From positions 251,515-315,514 of the forward strand of contig NZ_LMDC01000027.1 in assembly GCF_001425705.1 (NCBI RefSeq): a stretch of 64,000 nucleotides of DNA. The letters are read 5' to 3'. Under the pieces are notes generated by a model. That model worked only from the letters and a program-made list of their open reading frames with translations. It ran no database searches and had not been told where the DNA came from. The translations under genes and the position numbers were made by a program. Source of the DNA: Pelomonas sp. Root1217. Its GTDB lineage: Bacteria > Pseudomonadota > Gammaproteobacteria > Burkholderiales > Burkholderiaceae_C. Below, one piece after another: positions 32,580-51,884 of this stretch. The number at the start of each line of letters is the position of its first letter. The first letter of the stretch is position 1.

Positions 32580-32608
32580 GTTGTAGCTTCACTACAGAGC
32601 CTCGGCAA
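32580..32608 (-). promoter_or_regulatory. Promoter and HexR-like operator of glk-rpiR
   Basis: On the minus strand, TTGCCG (32603-32608), a 17-base spacer and TACAAC (32580-32585) form a plausible sigma-70 promoter. The palindrome at 32582-32596, TGTAGCTTCACTACA on the plus strand, fills the spacer and the -10 box. A bound dimer would block RNA polymerase, consistent with repression by the gene product. Confidence 0.65.
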
Positions 32609-32693
32609 TCGAGTTTCCCCAGGGCGATGGCTGGCTTGCCGGGAGTTGAAAGCGATTTCTCATTCGAGATTTGGTTCCAAGGGCGAGTATGTA

Positions 32694-32722
32694 TTGTCGA
32701 TTTGATGTAGTTTTGCTACCGT
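32694..32722 (+). promoter_or_regulatory. Promoter and HexR-like operator of the second glucokinase
   Basis: TTGTCG (32694-32699), a 17-base spacer and a weak TACCGT (32717-32722) are arranged as in the divergent promoter. The site TGTAGTTTTGCTACC (32706-32720) lies in the spacer and matches the palindrome with one substitution. The 349-base divergent gap holds no gene. Confidence 0.5.
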
Positions 32723-32823
32723 CCGCCGCGACCGTACTACACCCTTTTCAGCCTTGTGTTTGCCACTGTCCGACTCCTGAATATCCGCTGCCTTGCGCCC
32801 CTCCTTGTTTCGGGAGTTCCTGT

Positions 32824-33816
32824 ATGAGTGCCGCCTACCCCTGGTTGGTGGCCGACGTCGGCGGCACCAATGCGCGTTTCGGCACCGTGGCCGGCCCCGG
32901 CGCCGCAGTGGAAGACGTGCGGGTGCTGTCGGTGGCGGGCCATGCGGGCCCGGCGGCCGCTGTCCGCGCTTATCTGCAGGGGCAGCCAGCCGGCAAGGCC
33001 AAACCGCAAAGTGCGGCCTTTGCGCTCGCGACGGCGCTGGACGGCGATCACATCGAGCTGACCAACGGTGCCTGGAGCTTCTCGCGCGCCGGCACGCAGG
33101 CCGAACTGGGCCTGAAGACGCTGCTCTGCCTGAATGATTTCGAGGCCCAGGCGCTGTCGCTGCCGCGGCTGCGGGCCGACCAGCTGCGCGCCTGGGGTGC
33201 GCCCCCGCCGGCGACAGGTGATGTGGCTGTGGGCACGGTCATGGCTGTCATCGGCCCGGGCACGGGCCTGGGCGTGGGCGGCGTCGTGCGCGCACCCGGG
33301 CGCTGGCTGGCGCTGCCGGGTGAGGGTGGGCACGCGACGCTGGCGCCGGCGGACGATTTTGAGAGCGCCGTGCTGAGCCAGGCGCGCCGCGAGTTCCCGC
33401 ATGTGTCGGCCGAGCGCTTCCTGTCGGGCATCGGCCTGCCGGTGCTGTGCCGCGCCGTCGCGGCCGCGCTCGGCGAGGGCGAAGACGTCAGCTCGCTGCC
33501 GACCGAGCAGATCGTCGCCCGGGGCCTGGCCGGTGAATCGACTGCTTGCGTGCGCACGCTGGATCTCTTCTGCGCCATGCTGGGTGGTTTCGCCGGCAGC
33601 GTCGCGCTGACGCTGGGTTCGCGCGGCGGCGTCTTCATCGGCGGCGGCATCGTGCCGCGCCTGGGCGAGCGCTTCTTCCAATCGGAGTTTCGCGCCCGTT
33701 TCGAGGCCAAGGGGCGCTTCCAGCCCTTCCTGGCGGGCATCCCCACGGCCCTCATCACCGACACGCTGGCCGCATTGTCCGGCGCCGCCCTGGCGCTGGA
33801 GCAGGCCGACGCCTGA
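32824..33816 (+). CDS. glk: Glucokinase, stand-alone paralogue
   Basis: 330 residues from the ATG at 32824, with GGGAG upstream; the longer frame upstream reads through the promoter. It carries the same family motifs as the fused enzyme: LVADVGGTNARFGT, CLNDFEAQALSLP, IGPGTGLGVGGVV, PGEGGHATLAPAD and IGGGIVPRLGERFF. No regulator domain is attached. Having two glucokinases side by side suggests different expression or kinetics under glucose and maltodextrin growth. A stem-loop with a short T-rich tail follows the stop. Confidence 0.94.
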   Translation: MSAAYPWLVADVGGTNARFGTVAGPGAAVEDVRVLSVAGHAGPAAAVRAYLQGQPAGKAKPQSAAFALATALDGDHIELTNGAWSFSRAGTQAELGLKTLLCLNDFEAQALSLPRLRADQLRAWGAPPPATGDVAVGTVMAVIGPGTGLGVGGVVRAPGRWLALPGEGGHATLAPADDFESAVLSQARREFPHVSAERFLSGIGLPVLCRAVAAALGEGEDVSSLPTEQIVARGLAGESTACVRTLDLFCAMLGGFAGSVALTLGSRGGVFIGGGIVPRLGERFFQSEFRARFEAKGRFQPFLAGIPTALITDTLAALSGAALALEQADA

Positions 33817-33817
33817 C

Positions 33818-33848
33818 ACGGCGCGCGCGGTCTGCGCGCGCCGTCTTC
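33818..33848 (+). terminator. Probable terminator after the second glucokinase
   Basis: ACGGCGCGCGC (33818-33828) pairs perfectly with GCGCGCGCCGT (33834-33844) over a five-base loop, followed by CTTCTC. The tail is short in T, so the hairpin may be only moderately efficient. Confidence 0.6.
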
Positions 33849-49393: not shown

Positions 49394-50559
49394 TTGTTCA
49401 GCAGCATCCGTGCGGCAGCGCCGTCGAGCGCGTCCTTGGGGGATTGCAGTCCGTTGGTGATGGCCTCCAGCGCCGCGTCCATCGCGGTCCAGAAGCGGCC
49501 GACCTCGGGAATGTTGGGGATCGGCGCGCCATTGCGGGCGTTGGTCATGCTGGCCGCGATCAGCGGGTTGACGGACAGCTCGGCGTAGAAGGCCTTGTTG
49601 GCCGGCACGCCGATGGGCACGTCGGCATCCAGCACCTTCAGCGCCTCGGGACGCATCAGGTGGTTCTCGATGAACTCCTTGGCGATGTCCTTGTTCTTGC
49701 TGGGCGCTGAGATCATGCAGCCCAGCACGCCGACAAAGCTCTTGCTCGGCTTGCCGGCGACGACGGCCGGGATGGGCGCCACGCCGATGTCGATCTTGGC
49801 CCGCTTGGCGTTGTCCCAGGCCCAGGGGCCGGAGATCATCATGGCCACCTCGCCGCGGGCGAAGGCCGATTCCATCTCGGCATAGCGCGCGCCGCGGGGC
49901 ATGTGGCCGCCCTGGATGAGGCGCTCGATCATCTGCGCGCCCGCCAGCGCGCCGGCGTTGTTGACGTCCACCTGCCTGGGGTCGAAGTCACCCTGGGCGT
50001 CGCGGCCGAAGATGACGCCACCCGCGCCGGCAATCATGGGCCAGGTGAAGAAGCTCTTGTTGTAGTCCCACAGCACGGCGTGCTTGCCTTGCTGGGCGAG
50101 CTTCCTGTCCAGCGCGATCACTTCGTCCCAGGTCGCGGGCGGCGTCGGCACCAGAGCCTTGTTGTAGATGAGGCCGGTCGTCTCGATGGCGATGGGGTAA
50201 CCCCAGATGCGGCCGCGATAGCTGAGCGCCTTCCAGGCCTGCTCCTCGGACTCGGCCTTCAGCCTGGCCGATGGGCGCAGCGGCGTCAGCAGCCCGGCCT
50301 TGGCCCATTCGCCGATACGGTCATGCGGCCAGCAGAAGATGTCCGGCCCCTTGCCGGCGCCGGCGGCCTGCTGGAATTTGTCGGTGGGATCGACCGGATG
50401 CTCGACGACCACCTTGACGCCGGAGGCCTTCTCGAAGGCATCGCCCACCTTCTGCAGGCCGTTGTAGGCCTTGTCGCCATTGATCCAGACGAGGAGCTTG
50501 GAAGATTCGGCCAGGGCCGGCGCCGCCGCGAGCGCGACCAGCAGAGGCAACCACTTCAT
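49390..50559 (-). CDS. malE: Periplasmic maltose/maltodextrin-binding protein
   Basis: 389 residues with a signal peptide ending near PALAES. The mature protein shows MalE signatures: [50 protein letters not shown] and [14 protein letters not shown], including the aromatic residues that stack on glucose rings. It delivers maltodextrins to MalFG. It is coupled on both sides by four-base overlaps (malK upstream, malF downstream). Confidence 0.95.
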
Positions 50560-51677
50560 GCCTGCAGCTCCGGTGCAGCCAGGCGGCGCAGTGCCAGGCC
50601 GTTGGCGTCGAACACATACAGCGCCTCGGCCGGCAGGTACAGGTCCAGCGCCTGGCCGCTGCGCAGGCGGTCGCAGCCGTTGCGGCCTTCGAACTGGCAG
50701 GTCAGCGGCTCTTCGAGGCCGGGGTATGGGCAGTAGGCGAAGGTGATGCCACCGAGAGACTCGACGAAGGCGACGGTGCTTTGCAGCAGGTTGTCCGCAC
50801 CGCCCTGGCGGATGTGCTCGGGGCGCACGCCCAGCGTCACCTTGTCGCCCAGCCTGGCGCCGCTGCCGTCGACCCGCGCGTGCAGCACGACGCCGCTGCC
50901 GGCCAGCTTCACATCGACAAGACCCGCCTCGATCGCGGCCAGTTCGCCTTCGATGAAGTTCATCTTGGGGCTGCCGATGAATCCCGCCACGAAGAGGTTG
51001 CGCGGATGCTCGTACAGCTCCAGCGGCGAGCCCACCTGCTCGACCTTGCCCGCCGACAGCACGACGATGCGGTCGGCCAGCGTCATGGCCTCCACCTGAT
51101 CATGGGTCACGTAGATCATCGTGGTCTTGAGGTCCTCGTGCAGCTTGGCGAACTCGTAGCGCATGCGCACGCGCAGCGCGGCGTCGAGGTTGGACAGCGG
51201 CTCGTCGAACAGGAAGACATTGGGCTTGCGCACGATGGCGCGACCGATGGCGACCCGTTGACGCTGGCCGCCGGACAGGTCCTTGGGCTTGCGATCCAGC
51301 AGATGCTCGATATGGAGAATCTTTGCGGCATCGCGCACGGCCGTCTCGATCTCGGCCTTGGGCACCTTGGCCAGCTTCAAGCCGAAGGCCATGTTGTCGT
51401 ACAGGTTCATGTGCGGGTAGAGCGCATACGACTGGAACACCATGGCGATGCCGCGCTCGCTGGGCGGCACGTCGTTGACGACGCGGCCACCGATGGTCAG
51501 TTCGCCGCCGGTGATCTCTTCCAGGCCGGCGATGGAGCGCAGCAGCGTGGACTTGCCGCAGCCCGAGGGACCGACGAAGACCATGAACTCGCCGTCGCGG
51601 ATCTCCAGGTCGATGCCGTGAAGGATGCGGATGTCGCCATAGGCCTTTTCCACGCCGGTCAGTCGAACGTCTGCCAC
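50556..51677 (-). CDS. malK: Maltodextrin ABC transporter ATPase (MalK/UgpC type)
   Basis: 373 residues. Walker A is GPSGCGKST at 36-44, the signature [15 protein letters not shown], Walker [15 protein letters not shown] and a C-terminal regulatory beta domain (about 240-373) as in MalK. It powers uptake through MalFG. It is first in the operon malK-malE-malF-malG-GH13, transcribed from the promoter at 51767-51795, and divergent from glgP. No MalT-type or MalR-type regulator gene is nearby, so the RpiR palindromes are the best candidate control. Confidence 0.95.
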
Positions 51678-51759
51678 TTCCTAACCTTTCAGTCGCCAGT
51701 CGCGAGCGCCCGGCTTGTCTCATCGAATCGGGCTCAAATTTCTTGTCTTAGCCCGTCTT

Positions 51760-51795
51760 TGTAGACAATATACATTCCGAATTCAGCGAGAACAA
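51760..51795 (-). promoter_or_regulatory. malK operon promoter with HexR-like site
   Basis: On the minus strand, TTGTTC (51790-51795), 17 bases, then TATATT (51767-51772) form a strong-looking sigma-70 promoter. The site TGTAGACAATATACA (51760-51774) covers the -10 box and is a degenerate copy of the palindrome found elsewhere in the window. This geometry predicts repression of the uptake operon. Confidence 0.65.
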
Positions 51796-51869
51796 CAGAA
51801 AAGACCCGCTTGAATCTTCGTGAAACCCTTACAGATCAAGCGTTTGCAAAACGCACCGGGTTTTCCCGA

Positions 51870-51884
51870 TGTAGTCAAACTACA
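51870..51884. promoter_or_regulatory. HexR-like operator before glgP
   Basis: TGTAGTCAAACTACA is a palindrome with six-base perfect arms, the best match in the window to the HexR consensus as I recall it. It lies 83 bases before the glgP start in the divergent malK-glgP gap. A TTGCAA box at 51844-51849 could be the -35, but the -10 is unclear. Confidence 0.7.

Follow-up and report, generated by a model that had tools for sequence, protein, structure and literature searches.

The 64-kb window analyzed here (64,000 nucleotides of contig NZ_LMDC01000027.1 of Pelomonas sp. Root1217) encodes a protein in which a glucokinase is fused to a transcriptional regulator of the RpiR family, and raises the question which genes such a regulator would control, through which DNA site and in response to which signal. 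A literature search among open-licence papers returned no description of the targets, the operator or the ligand of a glucokinase-regulator fusion. An initial annotation of the same DNA had pointed to a ‘HexR-like' palindrome, TGTAG-N5-CTACA, before five loci of carbohydrate use, and had predicted a small local regulon under repression. The comparisons presented here suggest that the fusion probably switches its own gene along with a 30-kb neighbourhood of genes for starch and glycogen sugars.

All five positions in the initial annotation were correct: the 15-bp palindrome is exact at 32582, 34001 and 51870 and has one mismatch at 32706 and 51760. A sixth place, 34154, which lies 153 bp from 34001, was added by a scoring matrix built from 147 distinct sites in loci outside the strain's own genus, selected by the pattern with at most one mismatch. 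The six top-scoring places in the window are, in descending order from 27.4 to 17.8, 51870, 32582, 32706, 34001, 34154 and 51760, and the next place scores 11.5. All six sit in gene leaders, two in each of three regions, namely the divergent leader of the fusion and a second glucokinase gene (glk), the leader of a TonB-dependent receptor gene and the divergent leader of malK and glgP. The candidate operators are:

32582..32596, operator TGTAGCTTCACTACA of the fusion leader, located between the TTGCCG and TACAAC elements of a weak minus-strand promoter (pattern, conservation, profile)
32706..32720, operator TGTAGTTTTGCTACC in the second-glucokinase leader, its off-consensus end overlapping a possible -10 element, TACCGT (pattern, conservation, profile)
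34001..34015, operator TGTAGTTGCGCTACA in the TonB-receptor leader (pattern, conservation, matrix, window profile)
34154..34168, weaker sixth site TCTAGTTTTGATACA in the TonB-receptor leader (matrix score 19.7; similarly spaced pairs in other loci)
51760..51774, operator TGTAGACAATATACA, covering the putative -10 element of malK, TATATT on the minus strand (pattern, matrix, window profile, conservation)
51870..51884, operator TGTAGTCAAACTACA in the glgP leader (pattern, profile, conservation)

With at most one mismatch allowed, the window contains seven matches, compared with 0.20 expected from shuffles (controls were either shuffles or the pattern read backwards); the two matches beyond the original five, at 19072 and 31853, have matrix scores of 11.5 and 6.8, compared with 17.8 to 27.4 for the five. 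In the entire 6.65-Mb genome, the exact palindrome is found three times, always inside the window and within 19.3 kb (the reversed control has six copies, at places not listed). A profile, R1, trained on 50 matrix sites with the own genus left out, produced three matches at E<=10 in a genome scan that scored 150 of the 177 first-look candidates, and all three are in the cluster (51870, 32582 and 32706); run on the window alone, it also recovers 34001 and 51760, and the site at 34154 is reported in neither scan. The matrix consensus is TGTAGTTAAACTACA, with variable inner bases and G at position 5 in 93% of the sites, a value that is not independent because the sites were picked with TGTAG.

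The sites are conserved well beyond this strain. All 20 genomes of the genus (own included) carry one to four exact palindromes, which in most of these genomes represent the same three kinds of site. Among 80 loci retrieved by means of the fusion, the fusion leader (450 bp) contains an exact site in 44 cases and a one-mismatch site in 29, that is, a site with at most one mismatch in 73, whereas the reversed pattern gives none in 80 and shuffles give one in 400. The loci add up to 1.535 Mb, in which the exact palindrome occurs 107 times and the control once, and 104 of the 107 copies are located at most 700 bp upstream of a gene for the fusion, a glucokinase, a receptor or a glycoside hydrolase family 13 (GH13) enzyme, with three elsewhere. 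In the alignment of fusion/glucokinase leaders (19 sequences, two of these poorly aligned), the palindromes and an ATTAT block close to the start of the fusion gene belong to the best-conserved columns, and at the receptor-leader position (assigned relative to the fusion), many other loci contain site pairs, mostly 146-172 bp apart. In other genera, 14 stretches surrounding additional exact sites, chosen from listed sites and not at random, are distributed as follows: nine represent malK/glgP leaders, each containing two or three sites with no more than one mismatch (L120, L121, L125-L127, L129-L132), two lie between divergent genes for a pullulanase-like protein and an alpha-amylase (L122, L128), one site precedes a GH13 gene (L124), another precedes a weakly GH13-like gene followed by malK (L123), and the last, near which there is a TonB-receptor fragment, is assigned to no target gene (L119). 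The hexamer AATATA, the putative malK -10 element reversed, is kept in 10 of the 11 genus stretches shown and in all nine from other genera; the full malK-side palindrome is retained, with at most one mismatch, in five of these nine.

Pairs of sites 86-90 bp apart recur in unrelated leaders (malK/glgP and pullulanase/amylase) of other genera (L034, L120-L122, L124-L126, L128-L131). Helical phasing of paired operators was not supported (Rayleigh p of 0.1-0.8 for four periods, with 57 distinct spacings of 43-174 bp that were picked by eye, shorter, longer and a few other ones being left out).

The fusion consists of a glucokinase domain (residues 9-323), a helix-turn-helix (HTH) domain (336-406), a SIS domain (457-584) and a conserved C-terminal tail, with matches to PF02685, PF01418 (1.2e-18) and PF01380 (2.3e-15) in that order. 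Its nearest named relatives by protein are from Pelomonas/Roseateles strains, with identity from 98% downwards. The glucokinase half scores 315 bits against the TIGR00749 cut-off of 225 and appears to have intact catalytic motifs (NDF and EGGH in all 80 fusions, ER..SG in 79). An enzyme-regulator fusion of this kind already has a database name, NCBIfam PRK14101 ‘bifunctional transcriptional regulator/glucokinase', which shares the glucokinase-HTH-SIS order over most of the protein, although the window protein, with 823 bits, falls below the cut-off of 920; what the sequence yields is a testable operator, a short target list and residues that speak against the expected ligand. Repressors of the ROK family, such as Mlc, NagC and XylR, likewise combine DNA binding with a sugar-kinase fold in one protein. 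They differ in belonging to another kinase family and having another DNA-binding domain, whereas the kinase motifs of the fusion look intact. The helix VSQPTVIRFCR is invariant in 53 aligned fusions and aligns with VSEPTIVRFCR of 8ju9, the nearest solved chain; 8ju9 and 8k3b, the closest PDB sequences, are presumably RccR, an RpiR-family regulator. A search of the text of PMC10810197 did not return the code 8ju9.

The distribution of the palindrome in the bacterial family follows that of the fusion. Among 160 genomes, the exact motif is present in 25 of the 34 with a full-length fusion (query span from residue 70 or earlier to residue 590 or later) and in 18 of the 126 without one (Fisher p 8e-11), and two or more copies are found in 19 and 7 genomes, respectively. 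Where the fusion is at least 66% identical, 22 of 25 genomes have an exact site. Along with the confinement in the genome, the 80-locus counts and the profile scan, this co-occurrence supports the small local regulon of alpha-glucan genes that the initial annotation had proposed.

The arrangement of sites and promoters bears on the direction of control. The operator lies between the -35 and -10 elements of a sigma-70-like promoter match in the leaders of the fusion (TTGCCG-17-TACAAC, 8/12) and the second glucokinase (TTGTCG-17-TACCGT, 7/12), and over the -10 element in the malK leader (TTGTTC-17-TATATT, 8/12), all three matches being weak. In the glucokinase leader, the off-consensus end of the operator, CTACC, coincides with the possible -10 element and is itself conserved. 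Such overlap favours repression, as predicted in the initial annotation, and the mechanism can be outlined as follows. The fusion (30567-32474) would bind the 15-bp palindrome, roughly TGTAGY-N3-RCTACA, at six sites and, sitting over or between the -35 and -10 elements, would most likely repress its own gene and the second glucokinase; the same repression would cover the outer-membrane receptor with its amylase, the maltodextrin ATP-binding cassette transporter and the glycogen-phosphorylase operon, and would last until maltodextrin or glucose is present. The signal would be a ligand other than 2-keto-3-deoxy-6-phosphogluconate (KDPG), possibly glucose acting through the glucokinase domain. 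Taken as a whole, with a binding and repressing fusion, a signal distinct from KDPG and a local regulon of six sites, this explanation appears likely to be correct. The proposed regulator, its targets and the adjacent genes are:

30567..32474, minus strand, glucokinase-RpiR fusion, 635 amino acids, proposed regulator (PF02685, PF01418, PF01380; PRK14101)
32824..33816, plus strand, second, unfused glucokinase (PF02685, 1.1e-93)
34272..37067, plus strand, TonB-dependent receptor of the Xanthomonas/Caulobacter type (TIGR01782, 553 bits, cut-off 310)
37140..38651, plus strand, tryptophan-halogenase-family flavoprotein (PF04820, 1.9e-201)
38667..39962, plus strand, GH13 alpha-amylase-family enzyme (PF00128, 7.2e-35)
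44441..47653, minus strand, GH13 enzyme with the catalytic domain at residues 580-960, in a frame probably over-extended at the 5' end (PF00128, 4e-63)
47813..49393, minus strand, MalF-type permease (NF008232 MalF, 642 bits, cut-off 392)
49390..50559, minus strand, extracellular solute-binding protein in the MalE position (PF01547, 6.9e-46)
50556..51677, minus strand, MalK-type ATPase, encoded at the head of the transporter operon (PF00005, PF17912 OB_MalK, PF08402)
51968..54493, plus strand, glycogen/maltodextrin phosphorylase glgP (PF00343, 9e-300)
54496..56673, plus strand, branching enzyme glgB (PF22019, PF02922, PF02806)
56783..58861, plus strand, CBM48/GH13 debranching-type enzyme (PF02922, PF00128)
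58858..60369, plus strand, 4-alpha-glucanotransferase malQ (PF02446, 2.7e-170)

The substrate of the receptor is assigned from its neighbour genes because a PDB search with this protein returned the vitamin B12 receptor BtuB alone, over ∼105 residues.

The signal can be approached through the binding pocket. RccR senses KDPG, which is touched by nine of its residues (PMC10810197). Seven of the nine could be mapped (Ser139, His148, Arg152, His164, Ser183, Ser185 and Ser188, but not Lys270 and Arg277), and the window fusion has Tyr, Phe, Arg, Arg, Ser, Gly and Leu at these positions, so that only Arg152 and Ser183 are kept. Because five of the seven mapped contacts are replaced, KDPG is an unlikely effector of the fusion. 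The only other protein of this genome with a PF01418 match, which is encoded next to zwf, keeps all seven. A fusion that acts as the regulator but has kept the KDPG response of RccR and HexR would fit with the presence of the SIS domain and with the conservation of Arg152 and Ser183 in all 80 fusions and of Ser185 in 50 (28 have Gly and 2 have Thr), but the other four contacts, all of them among the five replaced in the window protein, are replaced in every one of the 80: Ser139 by Tyr in 79 and Asp in one, His148 by Phe, Tyr or Leu, His164 by Arg or Lys and Ser188 by Leu, Val, Ile or Met. Moreover, the tail motif IKxxLxxxR, which may hold the last two contacts and is present in the zwf-linked protein, is missing from all 80, and a KDPG response is accordingly considered improbable.

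Thirteen further fusions delimit this change of the pocket. Six more distant ones, with 56-58% identity (L165-L167, L169-L171), keep Ser139, His148, Arg152, Ser183 and Ser185 but not His164 and Ser188; L168 (58%) has a site and a pocket that differs from that of the window protein in having Ala at 139 and Tyr at position 148; L173 keeps His164; and L162 and L172 (43-47%) have TGTAAT-type sites in their leaders. The genomes of two of the six, G096 and G137, contain exact palindromes elsewhere, one of those in G137 being located before the GH13-like gene and malK of L123, so the operator may be used in these genomes as well. In the clade of the window protein, the decay of the pocket is accompanied, with exceptions, by a TGTAG site in the leader of the fusion gene itself. 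The fusions of G084, G109 and G114 (L133-L135, L165-L167) are encoded downstream of malF/malG-like genes, with no TGTAG site of at most one mismatch in the 5.1 kb upstream and no matrix match in the leader; the link between the fusion and maltose uptake may, therefore, be older than the present operator arrangement.

The C-terminus of most fusions is formed by a conserved short peptide similar to PGVSxASPLARLTSHSR (30570-30620 in the window; L016-L095), which follows a variable linker of 20-43 residues (64 measured) and matches a strict pattern in 66 of the 80; related C-terminal ends are found in several distant fusions. The predicted structure of the fusion has a mean predicted local distance difference test (pLDDT) score of 72 and a predicted template modelling score of 0.54, but the tail (596-635) is below a pLDDT of 50, so that the model is uninformative on tail docking. 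A tentative and, for now, rather doubtful elaboration is that the protein is a self-sensing kinase-repressor, in which the fused glucokinase would have taken over signal reception from a SIS domain with a decayed phosphosugar pocket, and glucose binding or turnover, perhaps relayed by the C-terminal tail, would move the RpiR half on and off the six operators. If the glucokinase domain is indeed the sensor, fusion to the pathway's first enzyme would have given an RpiR regulator a new input while the former ligand pocket decayed.

Several observations weigh against the proposal of a fusion-controlled local regulon. In the genome scan, which had been suggested as a check for random spread of the motif, the exact copies and profile matches are confined to the cluster, but copies with at most one mismatch are not enriched genome-wide (120 versus 291 in the control), so that the inexact sites at 32706 and 51760 have to be judged by position and conservation, and the genome profile matches are weak one by one (E of 0.35-5.9). 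The 80-locus counts are not independent events because the loci were fetched by the fusion and are mutually related. In seven of the 80 fusion leaders, no site comes within one mismatch of the palindrome; the sites of L049, L054 and L034 are instead located upstream of a different glucokinase-like gene or in between GH13 genes, and in L075 and L083, nothing convincing was found near the fusion. Three of the 25 genomes with a fusion of at least 66% identity have no exact site, although in two of these (G162 and G105), the fusion leader has a one-mismatch site, and in G046, the contig ends at the gene. The motif is found in 18 genomes without a full-length fusion, seven of which have at least two copies, and one of the six leaders of fusions with the other pocket (L171) has a site. 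With regard to promoters, the second glucokinase has a better match, TTGCCA-16-TATCCG at 32760, downstream of its operator; the scan gives nothing over 34001, and the best glgP match merely begins inside the operator. The geometry described in the initial annotation for the fusion and malK agrees with the weak matches, but a stricter scan (9/12) recovers none of them.

The identity of the binder has two further candidates. One is the zwf-linked RpiR protein, a classical HexR candidate that would bind the palindromes while the fusion works at other places or chiefly as an enzyme. It is a paralog with a similar recognition helix (VSKPTVVRFCR versus VSQPTVIRFCR), keeps all seven mapped KDPG contacts and is the better HexR candidate in this genome. 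However, the zwf leaders of the 20 genus genomes contain no matching site (best scores 1.7-5.4), there is no TGTAR-N5-YTACA with at most one mismatch in the 13 kb around zwf, and the palindromes occupy the leader of the fusion gene itself and follow the fusion through the family, a co-occurrence computed for the fusion alone. The zwf leaders keep a different block, GCATAGTATTTCACGAAACT(T/A)AGTTACACAACGG, in 18 of the 20 genomes, and because the only other RpiR gene adjoins zwf with this block, we infer that the likeliest binder of the palindrome is the glucokinase-RpiR fusion; binding by the zwf-linked protein seems quite improbable. The zwf-leader block itself (L118:7591-7624; L142-L161) contains TTTC-AC-GAAA, is nearly unchanged in these 18 genomes and, as TTTCACGAAA, is a candidate operator of the zwf-linked protein.

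The other candidate is an unlinked regulator of a different family, for example, one of the 16 LacI-family proteins matched in this genome, for which the fusion would be just one of the targets. Maltodextrin genes are indeed often controlled by LacI-type regulators (MalR and MalI; PMC4052901), but none of the 16 matches is inside the window, the palindrome is that of a measured RpiR-family site, as detailed below, and the co-occurrence with the fusion in the 160 genomes is strong (again, computed for the fusion alone), so this possibility also carries little weight. Finally, three exact genome copies are a number that chance could give (the control has six), but with these copies all in leaders within 19.3 kb and sites at the same places in other genera, the window and genome counts, the 80-locus counts and the matrix and profile scans make a chance origin very unlikely, and chance copies or a functionless repeat can be dismissed with near certainty.

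Fusion binding is best compared with RccR and HexR. RccR of Pseudomonas binds a 15-bp TGTAGT-N3-ACTACA site, as measured by surface plasmon resonance and footprints (TGTAGTTTTACTACT and TGTAGTAAAACTACA), represses itself, has two sites in the aceE leader and controls aceE, aceA, pckA, gap and other genes (PMC5489143). The window fusion shares with it an RpiR-type HTH followed by SIS, and, in both sequence and length, the window palindrome is that of the 15-bp RccR site; the differences are that RccR is unfused and senses KDPG, whereas the fusion lacks five of the seven contacts and serves alpha-glucan genes. For RccR-type targets (genes of pyruvate and glyoxylate metabolism and of gluconeogenesis), there was no genome profile match outside the cluster at E<=10 (individual leaders were not read, and the 28-bp RccR site was not searched). 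HexR of gamma-proteobacteria is likewise an RpiR-family protein with HTH and SIS; the Vibrio site, TGTAATTAAATTACA, is a 15-bp palindrome with TGTA ends, but its half-sites are TGTAAT, with A at position 5 (PMC11906056), whereas the five sites of the initial annotation read TGTAG. The Pseudomonas HexR site is TTGT-N7/8-ACAA, and HexR senses KDPG (PMC5489143); the core targets of HexR are zwf, edd and eda, with glk a target in several lineages (PMC5343134). The fusion scores 238 bits with the HexR family model NF008451, below the cut-off of 296. A genome-wide HexR-type regulon based on this motif is not supported, given that there is no other exact copy and no profile match outside the cluster at E<=10. 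The 20 zwf leaders contain no site (the edd/eda leaders were not read one by one). The label ‘HexR-like' thus holds for the RpiR-type regulator and the palindrome, but not for the family score, the TGTAAT half-site and the KDPG pocket; judging from sequence, the fusion seems to work like an RccR-type operator system of local reach, without being identifiable as either RccR or HexR.

Several features of the neighbourhood do not belong to the proposed target list. A RIO-domain protein (PF01163, 6.1e-43) is encoded inside the maltodextrin cluster at 40725-41564. Three frames of 295-701 codons (25708-27813, 41561-42448 and 42508-43584) have no Pfam match; the latter two belong to the cluster, with counterparts at some of the related loci, and the first may not be a real gene. 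In genome G154 (C4, C7, C56 and C57), for which no full-length fusion is listed, four identical copies of TGTAGCAGAGCTACA are perhaps a mobile repeat. Immediately before the glgP operator, at 51857-51868, there is a second palindrome, CGGG-TTTT-CCCG, which is kept in most genus stretches shown and, in looser form, in other genera, and which may be an element of another regulator.

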